A stretch of DNA of 34,048 nt from Methylotenera sp. (GTDB lineage Bacteria > Pseudomonadota > Gammaproteobacteria > Burkholderiales > Methylophilaceae): positions 1 through 34,048 of the forward strand of contig JAURWJ010000109.1 in NCBI GenBank assembly GCA_030655015.1, read 5' to 3'. Both the position numbers and the translations under genes were made by a program. The notes under the pieces are model-generated. The model did not search any database. It was not told where the DNA came from and was given only the letters and a program-made list of their open reading frames with translations. The first letter of the stretch is position 1. The number at the start of each line of letters is the position of its first letter. Shown here in pieces: positions 1 to 13,809 of this stretch.

Positions 1-911
1 TAGGCGTGGGTGGCAAACAAACCATCTTTAATCTATGCCTAGCCGTGCTTAATAAAGGTGATGAAGTTATTATTCCCGCACCTTATTGGGTCTCTTACGC
101 AGATATTGCGCTGGTCGCTGAAGCTACACCAGTGATTGTCCAATGTGGCATTGAGCAAGGCTTTAAGCTCTTGCCAGCACAGTTAGAAGCGGCCATTACG
201 CCCAACACTAAAATCTTTATGATTAACTCGCCATCTAACCCAACAGGTGCGGTGTACAGCTTGGCTGAGTTGCAAGCCTTGGGCGAAGTGTTACTTAAAC
301 ATCCGCATGTATTGGTCGCCACAGATGACATGTACGAACACGTGAATTTAACCGGCGATAAGTTTTACAACATTCTTAACGCTACCCCAGCACTTAAAGA
401 TCGTTGTATTGTACTCAACGGCGTTTCTAAAGCGTATTCAATGACCGGTTGGCGCATAGGCTACGCCGCAGGCCCGGCTTACATTATTAAAGCCATGGAA
501 ATTTTGCAATCGCAATCTACCAGCAACGCAACCTCCATTTCGCAAGTGGCCGCACAAGCCGCGCTAGAAGGTTCACAAGATTGCATCACCCCAATGGTAA
601 CGGCATTTAAAGAACGTCACACTTATGTAGTTAACCGCTTTAACACCATGCCCGGATTAAGTTGCTTAATGGCGGGCGGAGCATTTTATGCATTTCCTGA
701 TGCCCGCGCTGCGATTGATCATTTATTTAAAGCAGGCAAAATCAAAGCAGCTACAGACATGGCTTTAGCTGAATACTTACTTGAAGAATTTGATGTAGCG
801 GTAGTACCGGGCTCAGCCTTTGGTGCTGAAGGCTATTTCCGCATTTCATTTGCTACATCAATGGATAATCTTAAAAATGCGTTGGATCGTATTGAACGCG
901 CGCTTAACTAA
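1..911 (+). CDS. Class I aminotransferase (aspartate aminotransferase-like), 5' truncated
   Basis: PLP-dependent fold-type I aminotransferase, most likely aspartate/glutamate:oxaloacetate transamination in the cytoplasm. The reading frame is open from base 3, so the window edge removes the N-terminal quarter to third; the GTG at 6 is not the real start. Visible hallmarks are the glycine-rich GVGGKQTIFN cofactor segment, the NSPSNPTGAVYS motif, the ATDDMYEH segment with the PLP-ring Asp and Tyr, and SKAYSMTGWRIGY, whose Lys (residue 142 counted from base 6) forms the Schiff base. The carboxylate-binding Arg near YFRISFATS is also present. It ends in TAA and is followed by a stem-loop at 1055-1082. 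The family assignment is secure. The exact substrate (aspartate versus a related amino acid) is inferred from overall similarity to the AspC type Ib group. Confidence 0.93.
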   Translation, partial: GVGGKQTIFNLCLAVLNKGDEVIIPAPYWVSYADIALVAEATPVIVQCGIEQGFKLLPAQLEAAITPNTKIFMINSPSNPTGAVYSLAELQALGEVLLKHPHVLVATDDMYEHVNLTGDKFYNILNATPALKDRCIVLNGVSKAYSMTGWRIGYAAGPAYIIKAMEILQSQSTSNATSISQVAAQAALEGSQDCITPMVTAFKERHTYVVNRFNTMPGLSCLMAGGAFYAFPDARAAIDHLFKAGKIKAATDMALAEYLLEEFDVAVVPGSAFGAEGYFRISFATSMDNLKNALDRIERALN

Positions 912-968
912 GCGCATAAGTTAACCTATAAAAAGGAAATAAATTCTAAATACACCATTTGAATGGAC

Positions 969-990
969 TTACGTGTACAGTTACACGTAA
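969..990. repeat. Perfect 9-bp inverted repeat with 4-base loop
   Basis: TTACGTGTA and TACACGTAA are separated by CAGT, forming a perfect 22-base palindrome about 60 bp behind the aminotransferase stop codon. It has no T-run, so it is not a canonical terminator. It could be an operator or an RNA hairpin stabilising the 3' end of the aminotransferase transcript. Confidence 0.6.
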
Positions 991-1054
991 AGTATCGCTC
1001 AAAAGTGAGCAAAAAATACCAACTAAAAATTACTACTAAAACTTCTAAAAACAG

Positions 1055-1082
1055 CCACTGTATTGCTTTGCAGTGGTTTTTA
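1055..1082 (+). terminator. Rho-independent terminator after aminotransferase
   Basis: CCACTG and CAGTGG (1055-1060 and 1071-1076) form a 6-bp stem with a 10-base loop, followed at once by five T. A-rich sequence on the left (AAAACAG) allows weak function on the other strand too. It lies about 145 bp downstream of the aminotransferase stop. Confidence 0.7.
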
Positions 1083-1126
1083 CTCTTCAAAAATAAGATG
1101 TAAAGTAGGGCGCAAAATGCAAAAAA

Positions 1127-1135
1127 TTATCCACA
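1127..1135 (+). other. Isolated perfect DnaA box
   Basis: TTATCCACA matches the high-affinity DnaA box exactly and sits in an A-rich context. Only one copy was noticed here, so it is not an origin by itself. It may be chance or a remnant of the replication region of the decayed mobile element next to it. Confidence 0.4.
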
Positions 1136-1462
1136 GGCACCTAAAATCGCTGAAACCCTTATGGAATATGGCTTCTAGCTGTTTTTAAGGTTAGGGCGGT
1201 TATTCTCGTAAAATTGCTATTTTTCTAACTCTAGCACTATCGGAAAAAATTTCCTACGTTCCTAACATTTCACAAGTAGCACTTTTGAGCAAAAAAACGA
1301 ATTTTCGCCCGCCCGCAGCGAAGCGAGGACAGACGAATAATTAAGATTTTATGCATCAATCTATCCATTACGCCGCTATACCGAGTTCACGTAGAAACTT
1401 CTCAAACTCAGGTGGTTTTTCCTGCAAGCTAAGCGGCAATAAAGCCTCTTGCGACATGTTTT

Positions 1463-1532
1463 GGAGCGGTGCTGCGCCGCACGATGGCAGGGTACCTGCG
1501 CGAAGCGTAGGTGAGCCGTCGCTCGCCGCTCC
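1463..1532. repeat. 70-bp imperfect palindrome inserted in the xafT-like gene
   Basis: Outer arms GGAGCGG (1463-1469) and CCGCTCC (1526-1532) enclose inner pairing segments: GATGGC with GCCGTC, and ACCTGCGC with GCGTAGGT. A GAA loop lies at 1502-1504, so the whole unit folds into one long hairpin. Its length (70, or 1 modulo 3) is exactly what is needed to explain the frame change between the two coding halves of the surrounding gene. That makes it look like an inserted REP- or MITE-like unit. Confidence 0.6.
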
Positions 1533-1776
1533 ACGCTCTAAGCTCATGAGGCTTAAATCCTCGCCCCTCAGGTGACCATAACGTATCGTCACGTACAAAC
1601 CAATCCCCAAAGTAGGCATCGTCAAATACATACCCTACTTTTATTTTCAATACACGATAAGCAGTGTAGGGGATACGTACACGCCCTTTTTCCCAGTTTT
1701 GTAATGTTCTATGTGTTACGTCTAGTAATTTAGCTGCTTGTTGAGTTGTTAAATGAGCTCTACGACGCATTAAATA

Positions 1777-3278
1777 GTCGACCCTGAACAACTCAGTTCA
1801 ATCAGTTTTTAGCCGATTGAACTGAGCAATATTTAAATACTGCTGTATAGCAACGACGATCAATCGCAATTGGCTTGCAAAACACCGCCCGTAAAAAAGC
1901 CGGATGGCTCTCAGAATCATCCGTAAGTTGTGACCTGCGCCACACAGCATGGCATGCAATGCATCTCCCAAAGCCCCTTTAAGCCAGTTGCGCCGTAATC
2001 TTCCATCATTTTTCATATGCCAGATCGCCGGCTCTATGGCACTTCGCCGGTGTATGGCTTTTTTAATGCTCGGTGTTACGCCGCGCATCTGCCCACTGCG
2101 CCAGATTGTCACATGAGGGACTTCAATGCCGCGGTAACCTCTGTCCACAAACACTGCTTTCGGGGTGCGATTGGTTAGCATGAGGATCTGCTCGACTGCC
2201 AAGGGTAAGGTATGCCCATCATACGGGTTGCCTGGCATGCTCTTGATACCCACCACCAAGCCTTCTTTGTGTGTCGTTGCGATACTGACTTTCACGCCAA
2301 ATTCATAGGGCTGACGCACTTTGCCTTTGGCGATGCATTCGACTTCAGGCGCATGCAGGCTGTAGAGCTTATTCTTATCTGTGCGTTGTTGCATCATCAG
2401 ACGTTGCACTTTTGCCAGTATTGTTTTTACCGCGTCTGTGTCACCTTGATCAGCACTTAACTTGCGTTGAATATCCCGCCAGACACGACCGAGTATCGTA
2501 CGCTGTGTTTTAATCACGGCACGCATCCTGCGGTATTGCTTGGCATGGGCGTAGCGTGCCACTTGTGCCGCAAGTCTTAGTGCTTCACGGTTGTAGTTCT
2601 GCCGTAATGCAATGCCTAGTGATGCGGCTAGTCTGACCAAGTGTTGGCGGCCTTTCTCCAGCAACTGACTGTCGGTTGGGAAGGCAATGGCTTTTTCCAT
2701 TACGGTCGTATCCATGATCACTTTGTCGAAACTCTTTTCTTTGACCACCTTGCCGCGACGCGCAGCGTCGATGCTTTCACTAAGTAGCCGCTCAACCCCG
2801 GCTTCACCAATGCGCTTACGCCAGCGGGTGAGTGAGGATGGGTCGATTGGCGGTTCATGCTGGAAGTGGATCTCACCACAGAAATGCTGCCAGTAGGGAT
2901 TCTCCACCCAAGTCCAGATCAGTGCTTCATCGGACAAGGCAAAGGTATGCTGCAGATACAGCAATCCGGCAATCAGCCGTGGTGGTGTGGCGGGACGCCC
3001 GGTCTTGGAGGGGAAGAACCCGGACCATTGCGTTTGAAAGACTTCCCAGTCAATCAAAGCTGCCAGCTTGACTAAGGGATGTTCAAGATTGATCAGCTCG
3101 GTCAACACTTGCTGAAATAACTCACCGGAGGCGGGTAACTGATGTTTAGGTCCCATAAAAACACTCTGAAATTTGCAAGAAATCAAAGCGTTATTATTGC
3201 ATTTCTGGCAAATTCACACCACAAAAATATGCGTATTAACCAATAAAATCAATTGCTTGGGAGTTGTTCAGGGGCGAC
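1777..3278. mobile_element. IS5-type insertion sequence with terminal inverted repeats and 6-bp target duplication
   Basis: The ends read GTCGACCCTGAACAACTC (1777-1794) and, on the other strand, GTCGCCCCTGAACAACTC (3278-3261). These are 18-bp inverted repeats with one mismatch. They are flanked by direct repeats TAAATA at 1771-1776 and 3279-3284. The element is 1502 bp and holds one transposase gene. Insertion lies exactly between TTA and ATG codons of the xafT-like gene. The intact ends, duplication and open transposase frame suggest a recent, possibly active copy. Confidence 0.85.
1798..3156 (-). CDS. IS5-superfamily DDE transposase
   Basis: A 452-residue transposase if started at ATG 3156 (MGPKHQLPASGEL); an in-frame TTG at 3186 would add ten residues but has no better ribosome site. 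The N-terminal part has the IS5-type substrate-recognition segment (KTGRPATPPRLIAGLLYLQ and SSLTRWRKRIGEAG). Catalytic acids fit a DDE triad: Asp in KVIMDTTVMEKAI, Asp in AVFVDRGYRG, and Glu in HRRSAIEPAIWHMK, which is the IS5 YREK-like block. The central region is a basic helical insertion. The gene fills the element, ending 17 bases from the left boundary. Family placement is confident at superfamily level. The subgroup (IS1182-like or other) is not resolved from sequence alone. Confidence 0.88.
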   Translation of the reverse strand: MGPKHQLPASGELFQQVLTELINLEHPLVKLAALIDWEVFQTQWSGFFPSKTGRPATPPRLIAGLLYLQHTFALSDEALIWTWVENPYWQHFCGEIHFQHEPPIDPSSLTRWRKRIGEAGVERLLSESIDAARRGKVVKEKSFDKVIMDTTVMEKAIAFPTDSQLLEKGRQHLVRLAASLGIALRQNYNREALRLAAQVARYAHAKQYRRMRAVIKTQRTILGRVWRDIQRKLSADQGDTDAVKTILAKVQRLMMQQRTDKNKLYSLHAPEVECIAKGKVRQPYEFGVKVSIATTHKEGLVVGIKSMPGNPYDGHTLPLAVEQILMLTNRTPKAVFVDRGYRGIEVPHVTIWRSGQMRGVTPSIKKAIHRRSAIEPAIWHMKNDGRLRRNWLKGALGDALHAMLCGAGHNLRMILRAIRLFYGRCFASQLRLIVVAIQQYLNIAQFNRLKTD

Positions 3279-3438
3279 TAAATAGAAGTCGTCAGGGTCT
3301 ATATATGCGAGGTGATTTTAACGCGTTTAACCTGGCTTTATTTTTGCCTGCTTTTTTGATTGAGCACTCAGTCATGAAATGCTCCTTTGTGCTTAATTGC
3401 TCCTAGAACGTGAGATTTTTCGTGTGGGTGCAATACTG

Positions 3439-3609
3439 CTAAAAATTATCTAGTAGTTGTAAGTGACGTAGCAAAAATTCACTGGGCATAAAATCTTCGG
3501 TACAGCCTATATCTGATGCGAGAGATGTTGCTATATTTAACACTTGCTCATGAGAGAGCGAAAAGCCATAAAAAGCCTCTGGAGGCGTTATTACGGTTGT
3601 GTGTGACAT
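3439..3609 (-). CDS. Small 56-residue protein of unknown function, between dif and xafT-like gene
   Basis: ATG at 3609 is preceded by AGGAG (3616-3620) at ideal spacing, and the frame runs 56 codons to TAG at 3439. The product starts MSHTTVITPPEAFYGFSLSH and ends LLRHLQLLDNF. It is neutral to acidic, has no membrane segment or signal peptide, and matches no family I recognise. It lies 63 bases upstream of the ATG of the xafT-like gene on the same strand, so the two were probably one operon reading away from dif. Its start codon and ribosome site lie within a 9-bp inverted repeat, which suggests control of its expression. It may be a cargo or regulatory gene of the decayed Xer-dependent element. 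Confidence 0.6.
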   Translation of the reverse strand: MSHTTVITPPEAFYGFSLSHEQVLNIATSLASDIGCTEDFMPSEFLLRHLQLLDNF

Positions 3610-3632
3610 ACTTGACTCCTTGCGTCACACAC
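3599..3632 (-). promoter_or_regulatory. Inverted repeat enclosing ribosome site and start codon of the 56-residue gene
   Basis: GTGTGTGAC (3599-3607) and GTCACACAC (3624-3632) are perfect 9-bp arms around a 16-base loop. In the minus-strand mRNA the AGGAG ribosome site lies in the loop and the start codon touches the second arm. It could be a translational hairpin or a DNA operator for a small repressor. Confidence 0.55.
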
Positions 3633-3650
3633 CAAGTAACTACATACTTC

Positions 3651-3678
3651 ACTTCGTATAATGTATATTATGTAAAAT
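3651..3678 (+). other. dif: dif-like XerC/XerD recombination site
   Basis: The left (XerC-side) arm is ACTTCGTATAA, the 6-bp centre is TGTATA and the right (XerD-side) arm is TTATGTAAAAT. Compared from memory with E. coli dif, the centre is identical, the XerD arm differs at one position, and the XerC arm keeps the conserved inner bases. The XerC arm is even closer to the Neisseria form (AGTTCGCATAA). In a betaproteobacterium this marks the chromosome-dimer resolution site at the replication terminus. It lies 20 bp beyond the stop of the TPR gene and 42 bp from the 56-residue gene. Confidence 0.85.
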
Positions 3679-3697
3679 TATACAATTACCCGTGTCG

Positions 3698-4600
3698 TTA
3701 AAATAAATGTTGGGTCTCTTTGTTGATTTCCTCGTCCAAGGTTTTGTCATTAGTATTTTTAGCTATTAGTTTTGCATGTGCTATTAAGTCTTTAGCCGAT
3801 GAAGTATCACCCATCGCAAGTTTAAGTTGAGCTAGCACGACGCTTCCTTTTGCTTCAAAATAAGCACCACCCTGCTTTTTAGCAAAGTTAATAACTTTAT
3901 TGAGTATTCGTTCTGCACTCGCGTAATTTTTTTCAATTGTGTAGTAGCGACCAAGCTCAATACTTGAATGTGCATATTGGTCTAATGTACCCGCTTTTTC
4001 ATGCATAAAGTAAGCTCTGAGCTGAGACTCAAGTGCTAAATCATGTTGATTAAGTTCATGGTAAGTCAGCGCAATTTTTTCATGGCTTTCGCCGCGCTCA
4101 TTATCATTAGCATCCAATTTATTGGCGGATGTAAAAACTTCAAGTGCCTGAGTATATTGCTTATCCTGAAAGTAAATATCACCAATGGCAACAAGGCTCA
4201 TACGTTCAAACCCTTTATGCTTTGCGGTTTGTGCAAATTTAATTGCTTGCTGATAGCTTGAAATAGCTTGAGGGAGTTGTTTTGCGGCCTTGTAGGCATG
4301 GCCCATGACTAAAGCAATAACAGTTTTATCAAAAGCATCCGTTGAAAATTCATCTGCAGCTTTAAACTCGGCTAAAGCACCATTTAGATCATCTTTGGCG
4401 CTTAATAGTCGTCCTTGGCATATCAAGGCATCGCGGTCATTTTTATCAATACCTAATGCTTTTTTTGCAGCGGTTGTTGCCATGGTTATGTCACCGTGTT
4501 CAAAGGCTTTATTACAATCTGCTGCATCAGGACTTATGGCATAAACATGATTAAAAAACAATGAAATAAAGATTGAAGTTAAAGTAATTTGTAGTTTCAT
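3698..4600 (-). CDS. Exported tetratricopeptide-repeat protein
   Basis: A 300-residue protein with an N-terminal signal peptide (MKLQITLTSIFISLFFNHVYA, cleavage likely after VYA). The rest consists of helical TPR pairs: A-x-KALGIDKNDRDALICQGRL, a unit with FKAADEFSTDAFDKTVIAL, ISSYQQAIKFAQTAKHKGFE, QYTQALEVFTSANKLDAND and more to about residue 280. TPR arrays hold other proteins. A periplasmic scaffold role is plausible but no specific partner is shown. It is last in the smc-zipA-ligA-cysQ run, 84 bases after cysQ. The next landmark is dif, 20 bases past its stop codon. No terminator is evident between them. Confidence 0.8.
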   Translation of the reverse strand: MKLQITLTSIFISLFFNHVYAISPDAADCNKAFEHGDITMATTAAKKALGIDKNDRDALICQGRLLSAKDDLNGALAEFKAADEFSTDAFDKTVIALVMGHAYKAAKQLPQAISSYQQAIKFAQTAKHKGFERMSLVAIGDIYFQDKQYTQALEVFTSANKLDANDNERGESHEKIALTYHELNQHDLALESQLRAYFMHEKAGTLDQYAHSSIELGRYYTIEKNYASAERILNKVINFAKKQGGAYFEAKGSVVLAQLKLAMGDTSSAKDLIAHAKLIAKNTNDKTLDEEINKETQHLF

Positions 4601-4684
4601 TTTGTTTATTTTTCTCTATTGCTGGTGGTTAAAGTACTCAGGGTTTAATAAAAATCGGTAGTCATAAAAATCGAAAAAATAAGT

Positions 4685-5500
4685 TTATAAATAAGCTTCC
4701 CAGCGTTGTGAATTTTTGCCGGATGCGAAGAACATTGGATTTAGTAATGATCGTTTAGTGTTATAGCGCAATGCACTGCCTGACACCTCAACAATATCTC
4801 CACCTGCTTCCTGCAAGATACAATGCGCTGCTGCGGTATCCCACTCTGAAGTTGGCCCTAATCTAGGGTATACATCAGCCCGCCCTTCGGCCACCAAACA
4901 TATTTTTAGAGAGCTTCCCATATTGATAAGTTCAGGCATCAAGCCCGTATGATTTTTAATGTTGTGCAAAAAACACTGCATTTTTTCATCACTGTGCGAG
5001 CGGCTACCCGCGATTATGGGTCGCTTGGGGTCTAATGCTTTAGTGTGGATTTTAAATGCGGGACTTGCCCCAGCTTGCTTATAGGCACCATGTGTAGCTG
5101 TAGCGAAATAAAGCAAATCATCCACGGGTGCATAAACAACACCAAGCACTGAAGTGTGCTTGTCGATTAACGCAATATTGACCGTAAACTCCCCGTTTCG
5201 CTTTACAAACTCACGGGTGCCATCTAATGGGTCAATTAACCAATATTGAGCCCATGATCTTCGTATTTCTTCATCAATCCCCTCTGACTCTTCTGAAAGA
5301 ATTGGGATGTCAGGGGTAAGCTGCTTTAATGCATTGACGATTACATGATGCGCTGCCAAATCAGCTTGCGTAAGCGGTGAATTGTCATCTTTGTTTTCAA
5401 CGCTGAAATCTGTGGCATAAACTTGCATAATGGCTGCCCCAGCAGATTTGGCAATTGTAATCACTGATTCTAAGTATTGATGATAGTTTTGAGTATCCAT
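4685..5500 (-). CDS. cysQ: 3'(2'),5'-bisphosphate nucleotidase CysQ
   Basis: A 271-residue member of the inositol monophosphatase superfamily. It removes the 3' phosphate from PAP (and PAPS), the by-product of sulfate assimilation and of acyl carrier protein transfer. Metal-site motifs are present: the glutamate of ILSEESE near residue 80, then WLIDPLDGTREFVKRNGEFT (the DPxDGT box and the CysQ-type REF continuation), and near the C-terminus SEWDTAAAHCILQEAGG (the WDxAAG-type box). Length is slightly above E. coli CysQ (246). It starts nine bases after the ligA stop on the same strand, so co-transcription with ligA is likely. Confidence 0.9.
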   Translation of the reverse strand: MDTQNYHQYLESVITIAKSAGAAIMQVYATDFSVENKDDNSPLTQADLAAHHVIVNALKQLTPDIPILSEESEGIDEEIRRSWAQYWLIDPLDGTREFVKRNGEFTVNIALIDKHTSVLGVVYAPVDDLLYFATATHGAYKQAGASPAFKIHTKALDPKRPIIAGSRSHSDEKMQCFLHNIKNHTGLMPELINMGSSLKICLVAEGRADVYPRLGPTSEWDTAAAHCILQEAGGDIVEVSGSALRYNTKRSLLNPMFFASGKNSQRWEAYL

Positions 5501-5509
5501 ATCTATAGT

Positions 5510-7516
<2,007 letters not shown>

Positions 7517-9013
7517 TTATGAAAACAATCTATGCGCACTCTCAGACCCTGGAACAATCCCACGCACTAACATCGTGGCATGAATCACCTTGAGTTGTTG
7601 ACGGATTTTTTCAATCTGCATATCACCTAACACTCTATTATTATCATCCACCAATATTGCGCTCAAGCCAGTCTCCATTTGCTTCGCAACTTGTACCATG
7701 TGGTTAAAGGCTTCTGCACAATGCTTAACATGTGGAATATCTAATTGAAAGCTGACAGCTTTCACGACAGATGTTCTTAACATTTCAGGGCTAAAGGGGT
7801 GTTGATCGCGATTAAACATGATGAAAGAAGGCTGTGGTGTGATAGCTGGATTTTGTAGCGCTTGCTTACTGGCCGCTTCATCAAAATATTTAAAAGTACC
7901 GTCTGCTGACAGTAGCAACCCTTGCGACTCTGCTAAGCCCCTTAATTTAGTGCCAGTAAACGCGCCATTATCACCATGCGTAAGGTGAAATCCCATGGTT
8001 TTATCCACATCAATACAAAACGCATCAAGCGCGTTGGCTGCTGTTAAAGCATCACCTGTACTTTGCCACTCTACATGGGCATTTATATCTAAACCTAACG
8101 TTTCTACCGCTAATTGAAAGCGATTCAATATATTGCGTGAAACCGGCCCTGCACGGTCAGCTAGTTGTAAACTGCAAGCAAGTCTTGATACCGACTGATT
8201 CAGTAATTGTGGTTTTGATATGGCATCACTTAGTAATAACCATTGTTTATTTGAATCCAACACATGGGTATATGCAGGCTTTTCATAGCCCTCAAACAAC
8301 CCGTTTAGCACTTTATTCAGTTCACTGAAAGTGGATTCAGAGGCCAAATATAAAATTGCGGTTAAATCCATTTGCGCATGCAACATGGGCGGTAAACTCA
8401 GTACCGGCTCTTCAAATGAATGTCGTGTTGAAGGGCTGGGTGAAACTTCTTCGATATTATTATTTATATCTAACGCATCATTGCTAGTGTGGCTAAAAGC
8501 TTCATCGAAAATAGCCTTAATTTCATCACGTTGCGCTGGTCTAATTTCAGTGGTTGGATTTGTTTTCTGAACTTCAACCTCAACTGAAGTAATTTTGTGA
8601 GGTTTGTTTACCAGCTCCGCATAGGCGGTATCAATAGAATCCTCATCTGCTAGGTCATCGTTTAATGGCTCATAACCAGCTAACGAAACAAAACGATCAT
8701 CATCATGCAAGGCTGTGTCTGTCGTAGATATATTTGCAGTTGAGACAAAAGGTTCGTCAATTGCCACCTCCAATTCATCTTGCCCAGTAGAGAAATTACT
8801 GTTAACAGAACCGTCCGGAATACTATCAAATTGGCTCATATCAAGTTTGCTGATATCCAGCTTGGGATCATCAAGTAGCGCATCACTTTTTAATTGAGAG
8901 AAGCTACTTTCGACTTGTTGATGAAACCGCCGCTCTTGCCACCAGTTAAGAATGAGCACGGCGGCAATAATTAACACCCCAATGACAATCAATACTATTT
9001 GCAAATCACTCAT
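7517..9013 (-). CDS. zipA: Cell division protein ZipA-like (FtsZ membrane tether)
   Basis: A 498-residue protein from ATG 9013; GTG 9016 and TTG 9019 are alternatives in frame. The N-terminus has one transmembrane helix (LQIVLIVIGVLIIAAVLILN) with the short periplasmic end typical of ZipA. A basic WWQERR follows, then a long acidic, low-complexity linker (about 35-220). The C-terminal globular domain (about 230-490) carries the ZipA FtsZ-binding fold pattern: DLTAILYLASESTFS, GPVSRNILNRFQLAVETLGL and MGFHLTHGDNGAFTG. It is longer than the E. coli protein (328). Position between smc and ligA is the usual betaproteobacterial arrangement and supports the call. Confidence 0.85.
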   Translation of the reverse strand: MSDLQIVLIVIGVLIIAAVLILNWWQERRFHQQVESSFSQLKSDALLDDPKLDISKLDMSQFDSIPDGSVNSNFSTGQDELEVAIDEPFVSTANISTTDTALHDDDRFVSLAGYEPLNDDLADEDSIDTAYAELVNKPHKITSVEVEVQKTNPTTEIRPAQRDEIKAIFDEAFSHTSNDALDINNNIEEVSPSPSTRHSFEEPVLSLPPMLHAQMDLTAILYLASESTFSELNKVLNGLFEGYEKPAYTHVLDSNKQWLLLSDAISKPQLLNQSVSRLACSLQLADRAGPVSRNILNRFQLAVETLGLDINAHVEWQSTGDALTAANALDAFCIDVDKTMGFHLTHGDNGAFTGTKLRGLAESQGLLLSADGTFKYFDEAASKQALQNPAITPQPSFIMFNRDQHPFSPEMLRTSVVKAVSFQLDIPHVKHCAEAFNHMVQVAKQMETGLSAILVDDNNRVLGDMQIEKIRQQLKVIHATMLVRGIVPGSESAHRLFS

Positions 9014-13116: not shown

Positions 13117-13183
13117 CTTGCACGGTTTTAATGCTATAAATTTCAGGTTGAAACATAAATTAAGCAAAATATAATGAAAATCA

Positions 13184-13212
13184 TTGACAAGCGCCCTGCC
13201 CATCTTTATTAT
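13184..13212 (+). promoter_or_regulatory. Strong sigma-70 promoter of the tRNA-Ala/tRNA-Glu unit
   Basis: A perfect -35 TTGACA (13184-13189), exactly 17 bases of spacer, and -10 TATTAT (13207-13212), followed directly by the GC-rich discriminator GGCGCC. That combination is typical of stable-RNA promoters under growth-rate and ppGpp control. The first tRNA base is 49 bases beyond the -10 element. Confidence 0.8.
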
Positions 13213-13261
13213 GGCGCCTCGCTGATGACGCAATTGATTGAAAGCGAAAGGGTCTAGGTAC

Positions 13262-13337
<76 letters not shown>

Positions 13338-13417
13338 AAATAGTTAAAATTTAACTTTAAGTTAAACCGTAAGTTGTAGTAAAATGTCGCACTTGTAACA
13401 AAGCAGTAAATTCTTAG

Positions 13418-13493
13418 GTCCCCATCGTCTAGAGGCCTAGGACACCTCCCTTTCACGGAGGCGACCCGGGTTCGAATCCCGGTGGGGACGCCA
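13418..13493 (+). tRNA. tRNA-Glu (TTC)
   Basis: Acceptor GTCCCCA pairs with TGGGGAC. The D arm contains CGTCTAGAGGCCTAGGACA, and the anticodon stem CCTCC/GGAGG has loop CTTTCAC, giving TTC. The T arm CCGGGTTCGAATCCCGG follows. CCA is encoded. The only tRNA-Glu gene in the window; a strong terminator follows 26 bases later. Confidence 0.97.
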
Positions 13494-13519
13494 ATTATTA
13501 TCAAATTGGCAACGTAAAC

Positions 13520-13546
13520 AAGGCCTTGTATATCAAGGCCTTTTTT
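13520..13546 (+). terminator. Rho-independent terminator of the tRNA unit
   Basis: AAGGCCTTG and CAAGGCCTT form a perfect 9-bp stem around the loop TATAT, with the T-run to 13546. It works for transcripts leaving tRNA-Glu. Confidence 0.9.
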
Positions 13547-13809
13547 GTTTTTGGCAACTACACAAGCAACCAAGTAATTGCCACGGTTCTGTAACAATTT
13601 CAAATACTTAAATACACCTCAATCCAGTTGCTTACAATTTATGTGATACCACTATTGAATACAAGTAAAAATAGCATTGCGTAAACAGTATTAAAATTGA
13701 GCGTAGCTTGCTTTTTAATTTCACGATTCTAGTTGTAATACTTAACATTACGCTTTAAATTAAACAAGATAAACACACTGCTTTTCAGCATTGAATTTGG
13801 CGGATAAAA

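Follow-up and report, generated by a model that had tools for sequence, protein, structure and literature searches.

We analysed a stretch of 34,048 nucleotides from Methylotenera sp. (in the following, the window), i.e., the entire contig G000:C146 of a draft genome (2.34 Mb, 156 contigs, 85% complete). Left of its dif site, the window very probably holds the dead remnant of a compact TLC-phi-like integrative element, which would have exploited the recombinases XerC and XerD at dif. Direct support comes from the dif site, from the family membership of the gene beside it, from the decay of this gene and, among relatives, from an empty site and from units with a site at either end (genomes are numbered G, loci L).

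The right boundary of the element is given by the following site.

3651-3678, plus strand: dif, 28 bp, XerC arm left and XerD arm right

The site is perfect and single in the window, where 0 are expected (100 shuffles). The TTCGYATAATGTATA site is also found only once in the whole draft genome, i.e., at this position. Left of dif follow, in outward order, a 56-codon open reading frame (ORF), a VC1465-family gene split by an insertion sequence (IS), a non-coding stretch and an aminotransferase gene (end at 911).

The open piece at 1429-1791 (minus strand) reaches 81.5 bits (cut-off 70, E 4e-23) against NF040522, the NCBIfam model 'VC1465 family Xer recombination activation factor'. The original prediction, which had proposed a VC1465/XafT-type gene beside dif, is thereby borne out. 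XafT itself is a XerD-activating factor (PMC9765430). An intact pair of both genes is present in G175 of the same genus (locus L111), encoding a 197-aa VC1465-family protein (76.5 bits for NF040522) and a 73-aa small protein. The gene pieces of the window were matched separately to the 197-aa protein and never joined. The respective features are:

3301-3375, minus strand: VC1465-family piece 1, L111 homologue residues 1-26
3276-3305, minus strand: VC1465-family piece 2, residues 26-35, different frame
about 1777-3278, minus strand: IS5-family insertion sequence in the VC1465-family gene, transposase at 1798-3186
1540-1776, minus strand: VC1465-family piece 3 (helix-turn-helix and core), L111 query; hidden Markov model match at 1522-1767
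1371-1544, minus strand: VC1465-family piece 4 (tail), residues 140-197, different frame, 84% identical to L111

As had been proposed for the order of the pieces, the four matches are collinear with one intact homologue; they use two frames, and the IS lies between pieces 2 and 3. Residues 33 to about 112 of the L111 protein match inside 1776-1465 of the window, and about 27 codons between pieces 3 and 4 are without good counterpart. Judged from these matches, three lesions disrupt the VC1465-family gene, namely a frameshift, the insertion of an IS5-family element and a deletion. The transposase of the IS is assigned to the IS5 family with 535.7 bits, its terminal inverted repeats agree in 19/20 positions (ends placed by inspection), and TAAATA flanks it at 1771-1776 and 3279-3284. 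Other copies of the IS in the genome are partial and diverged. We also observed a GC-rich palindromic stretch in the tail of the gene (window 1462-1538; L111 about 3460-3535), which is readable in frame in the intact L111 copy and single-copy in the window's genome.

Between this gene and dif lie the remains of the small gene:

3439-3609, minus strand: 56-codon ORF, the shortened small gene, with 73 codons in the L111 homologue
3380-3445, minus strand: trace of the small gene's lost end, different frame, E 0.004

A 56-codon gene beside dif had been predicted; it is present and reads away from dif, but is itself truncated. Since the large gene is in pieces and the small gene is cut short, both genes are broken, which agrees with the decayed state claimed before. 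No match of the 56-codon ORF was found in Pfam, NCBIfam or PHROGs. Homology to the first gene of the units in other genomes (see below) was considered, but is not supported by profile comparison (probability 1.8%); position alone agrees.

Next, we searched NF040522 in 150 genomes of the family and in 52 of the genus; both sets combined cover 178/187 family genomes. In total, 19 genes exceed the cut-off, found in 18/178 genomes. The same gene was sought far from dif in relatives, since such a location had been named as the result that speaks against a dif-bound element, and was not found: all 19 genes over the cut-off have a dif-like site (TTCGYATAATGTATA) within 1,884 bp of the match. Sites on both sides are present in 12/18 genomes (13 units; G174 with 2 mismatches). 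These bounded units show an intact dif on the right and a left site whose XerC arm and centre are kept or nearly so and whose XerD arm is degenerate. Their lengths are 1,433, 1,509, 1,519, 1,527, 1,694, 1,706, 1,720, 1,721, 1,729, 1,908, 2,106, 2,578 and 2,716 bp. The remnant had been called unusually small; given this range in relatives, its smallness is normal for its kind. The remaining 6/18 genomes have a single site beside the gene, namely G095, G096 and G083 (contig ends), G175 (other genes next), G117 (other site 70 kb off, in opposite orientation) and the window's own genome. Among the 150 genomes, two or more dif-like sites are found in 14/15 genomes with a gene over the cut-off vs. 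3/135 without (Fisher p 6e-16).

The gene order in the units, read inward from dif, is a small gene, an HTH-like (helix-turn-helix) gene in several of them, the VC1465-family gene and, again in several, a further small HTH gene; the units of L034 and L037 carry extra genes. Pfam reports no replication family among the unit proteins scanned, a set that takes in part of the small ORFs. Six loci below the cut-off (47.5-65.1 bits) were examined, and no dif-like site was found within the respective 12-16 kb stretches. The sub-cut-off proteins of G090, G145, G001, G146, G062 and G021 are longer and not dif-linked; such longer proteins may represent a separate subfamily.

Elements of this kind are, in the XafT work of Midonet et al. 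from 2019, reportedly widespread in gamma- and beta-proteobacteria. Outside the family, we find two tandem units of 1,392 and 1,332 bp in Rhodoferax (L127) and one of 1,810 bp in Hydrogenophaga (L130), each with own dif sequences, while the other five of the seven other-family loci lack either a second site or any dif in the scanned stretch. The units of both Comamonadaceae loci carry VC1465-like genes, and long overlapping frames are contained in their genes. In phage and plasmid collections, VC1465-like proteins occur in 1 phage and 5 plasmid records, all from Vibrio and with 48-57% query coverage.

As a side observation, ORFs that by eye resemble Tn7-type transposition genes stand beside the right ends of the related elements in L111 (4400-5795, G175) and L041 (8560-9600, Methylotenera mobilis 13), for which family searches give no confirmation. 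The ORF beside the L111 unit was tried as TnsA and rejected, being under every cut-off (14.1 bits vs. 110). Beside the right end of a third related element, an end sequence that resembles that of L041 is seen in L112 (G122) at about 1690.

Presence/absence at dif, a comparison that had been suggested for sister strains, can be followed in a relative. That is, G090 shows an empty dif exactly at the position of the 2,716-bp unit of G027. Up to the site, the flanks of both genomes agree in about 97% of positions over 1 kb each (left 969/1002, right 968/1003), while control comparisons against the inside of the unit yield about 50% identity. G131 holds two units in tandem. Furthermore, G084 and G131 have VC1465 proteins with 97.2% identity (143 aa), compared to 82.8% over 667 aa for LigA; such near-identity would argue for transfer. 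The remaining three small proteins of the G084 and G131 units are 68-93% identical. Given these unequal identities, the units are mosaic.

Left of the VC1465-family gene, we identified three further features:

969-1015, plus strand: block with palindrome TTACGTGTACAGTTACACGTAA, read as right end of an older element
1018-1057, no strand: expected place of the lost left attachment site, from the spacing to the TTATCCACA box and to the right-end block
1127-1135, plus strand: TTATCCACA box, which we take to be DnaA-box-like

The original prediction had set the left limit at 1368. The window aligns with L111 beyond this position (969-1260 with L111 2640-2940), so that element DNA continues past the gene end, leftward to about 969. 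Within the right-end block, 978-1015 is identical to L031 4370-4407 (38/38 bases), a stretch that stops 13 bases short of this unit's dif. The TTATCCACA box is located 98-110 bp inside the left site in four unit ends (L031, L033, L036, L096) and is absent from ten other complete units scanned. Both spacings, i.e., that of the box and that of the right-end block, point to about 1018-1030 for the lost left site. The composite layout of the window recurs in L111, which has in addition a degenerate site farther out at 1961. A younger element may have fused with the right end of an older one via loss of the intervening site, and the window would subsequently have lost the outer left part, too.

For the insertion itself, we infer that XerD is activated, that the element passes through a circle, and in which order the strands are exchanged, as follows. 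In working relatives, a small circle would harbour the gene of a XafT-like protein and a half-dif, a site that keeps XerC arm and centre but whose XerD arm is degenerate. XerC and XerD would pair the half-dif of the circle with the dif of the host. The VC1465-family protein would then activate XerD, replacing FtsK, such that the first strand exchange is made by XerD and the second by XerC. The outcome would be a circle integrated at dif, flanked by the degenerate site on its left and an intact dif on its right. Since an intact dif remains right of the insert, dimer resolution would be kept; that this dif accepts further elements would explain the tandem units. The genome of the window encodes a XerD-family recombinase (288.5 bits, below the curated cut-off of 329.6), as well as another, weaker one. 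The dif left by the window copy is intact. The copy itself has lost its activator, the end of its small gene and its left site, and is therefore not expected to excise, i.e., it should be immobile.

Several points weigh against reading the window as such a remnant. The left edge of the element had been predicted to carry a dif half-site, of which none is recognisable: we find no second dif-like site in the window, neither as whole site with up to 3 mismatches nor as half sites with up to 2. The XerD arm alone occurs at chance level (24 matches vs. 24.6 expected). For the family assignment, the window piece scores 22.3 bits on DUF3653 (PF12375), just under the cut-off of 22.4, which the L111 homologue exceeds (24.7 bits). 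Three genomes without the gene (G137, G146, G059) have two sites, too.

We further considered that the mini-units are replicase-less satellites of filamentous phages, with the window as a dead member, which would refine rather than contradict the reading as a TLC-phi-like remnant. We regard this as a tentative proposal that falls somewhat short of even chances. Here, a unit would consist of a half-dif for attachment, the gene of a XafT-like activator, one to three further small genes including small regulators and, in some units, a copy of the helper's origin as found before its replication gene. The helper would replicate and package the units by means of its replication protein and coat, and the Xer enzymes of the host would insert them, such that units pile up beside dif and helper. 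Perhaps, and again with slightly less than even confidence, the class would span the dif-bounded 1.3-2.7 kb units of Methylophilaceae and Comamonadaceae, with the window as an end point killed by its IS.

The proposal is based on a double hairpin located between the VC1465 gene and the distal HTH gene in the units of L032 and L035, whose second half is retained in L043 and L134. There are 3 copies of the second half in loci L031-L050 and L081-L100 (923,206 strand-bases), namely those in the units of L032, L035 and L043. The exact full motif is found in 4 viral contigs of IMG/VR, a set selected for viruses, which limits the weight of this match. Thus, the motif is common to four units (whole or half) and to phages. 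Of the 4 viral contigs, L161, L162 and L164 encode Zot and a Phage_CRI-type replication protein; L133 (a stretch of L163) shows the same match and hairpin as L132 (part of L162). The motif lies at most about 80 bases upstream of the replication gene in L161 and L164, and L162 holds two copies: the first, whose second half is changed, precedes the replication gene, while the other is located in a directly neighbouring unit of 1,798 bp, which has dif-like sites at both ends and a VC1465-family gene inside. From its position before the replication gene, the motif is a putative replication origin.

Mini-units in tandem with a Zot phage are thus seen in L162 and, with a 1,569-bp unit, in L134. In the Methylotenera genome G163, a Zot phage is located immediately left of dif (L156 1506-5109, G163:C32), the spot that mini-units occupy elsewhere. 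The missing replication family in the scanned unit proteins is in favour of satellites as well. On the other hand, only 2 of the 52 genus genomes encode Zot, with a unit gene also present in one of them (G175), and neither the window nor most of the scanned units contain the motif. The phage of L134 shows no motif copy in the inspected intergenic stretch before its replication gene, and the origin role is deduced from the place of the motif.

It is very unlikely that the two genes are a toxin-antitoxin or repressor pair of a decayed phage without Xer role. In profile searches, HigA-2 antitoxins and further helix-turn-helix proteins are the closest solved structures, and HTH families score in Pfam; an HTH part is, however, expected under either reading, while the linkage to dif-like sites (19/19 over the cut-off) and the NF040522 score above its cut-off speak against such a pair. 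Least probable is a resident dif-neighbouring regulator of the VC1465 family, vertically inherited and immobile, which would fit the gene's place beside dif in several genera of one family, but is at odds with its patchy presence, with tandem copies, with degenerate sites on the far side and near-identical proteins in distant hosts, and which the exact empty site refutes for the relatives.

Concerning the neighbourhood of the remnant, TPR, inositol-monophosphatase and ligA genes are found right of the window's dif, likewise in many of the compared loci; against G107, this right flank is identical in 777/900 positions. G107, whose LigA is 91% identical to that of the window, has a dif without VC1465 gene over the cut-off (L088 5300-5434). 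On its left, this dif is flanked by sequence like that at the right end of the G131 units, suggestive of a remnant. No known RNA is found in window 1-8000 at E <=1, and in seven unit-bearing loci the only one is a tmRNA elsewhere in L043. A 140-codon ORF at 13181-13603 (minus strand) of the window overlies two opposite-strand tRNA genes (Ala, Glu) and is probably no gene.

The left side of dif in Methylotenera is a gathering place for mini-elements, filamentous phages and insertion sequences. The units suggest how little DNA may suffice for a life off the chromosome-dimer machinery, as some relatives have two or three small genes between two dif-like sites. With these natural units of methylotrophs, one could test by what means a XafT-like protein enables XerD to act on a site that lacks a proper XerD arm, as well as whether phage satellites can dispense with an own replication gene.

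Literature searches turned up no publication about mini-elements of this kind or about elements at the dif of Methylotenera, which does not imply their absence from print. Among the closest known systems is TLC-phi: its site has a dif-like XerC arm and centre and a degenerate XerD arm, and its integration is initiated by XerD without FtsK (PMC4246890, PMC5357621). The likeness to TLC-phi and XafT comprises the VC1465-family gene, integration at dif, the site layout in relatives and tandem arrays beside filamentous phages. In contrast, TLC-phi is a satellite with its own replication module (PMC4246890), while the units here are 1.4-2.7 kb in size and show no replication family in the scanned proteins, and the window copy is broken and without left site. 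With respect to what defines the TLC-phi type, insertion at the chromosomal dif is seen in the window, whose gene adjoins dif, and in relatives (19/19 genes within 1,884 bp of a dif-like site, plus the empty site), while a second, degenerate site is present in 12/18 of the relatives' genomes and absent from the window. Given this absence, we file the window as a remnant related to TLC-phi-type integrative mobile elements exploiting Xer (IMEX) and not as a working member.

RS1, the satellite of CTX-phi, encodes its own replication protein, and the gonococcal genomic island comprises tens of kilobases. As in RS1, a small element of satellite type forms a tandem with a Zot-bearing filamentous phage at dif; CTX-type integration differs in using two att sites folded from single-stranded DNA and XerC only (PMC5357621, PMC4246890). 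With the gonococcal island and large IMEX, the units share dif integration and the divergence of one site on the XerD side (PMC5357621). They differ in size, a 29.1-kb example being described vs. mini-units here, and in the FtsK-driven integration described for the gonococcal island (both PMC5357621). What differs in the relatives is the small size together with the lack of a recognised replication gene. By its family gene and its likeness to TLC-phi, the window therefore holds a remnant of a known kind of element.

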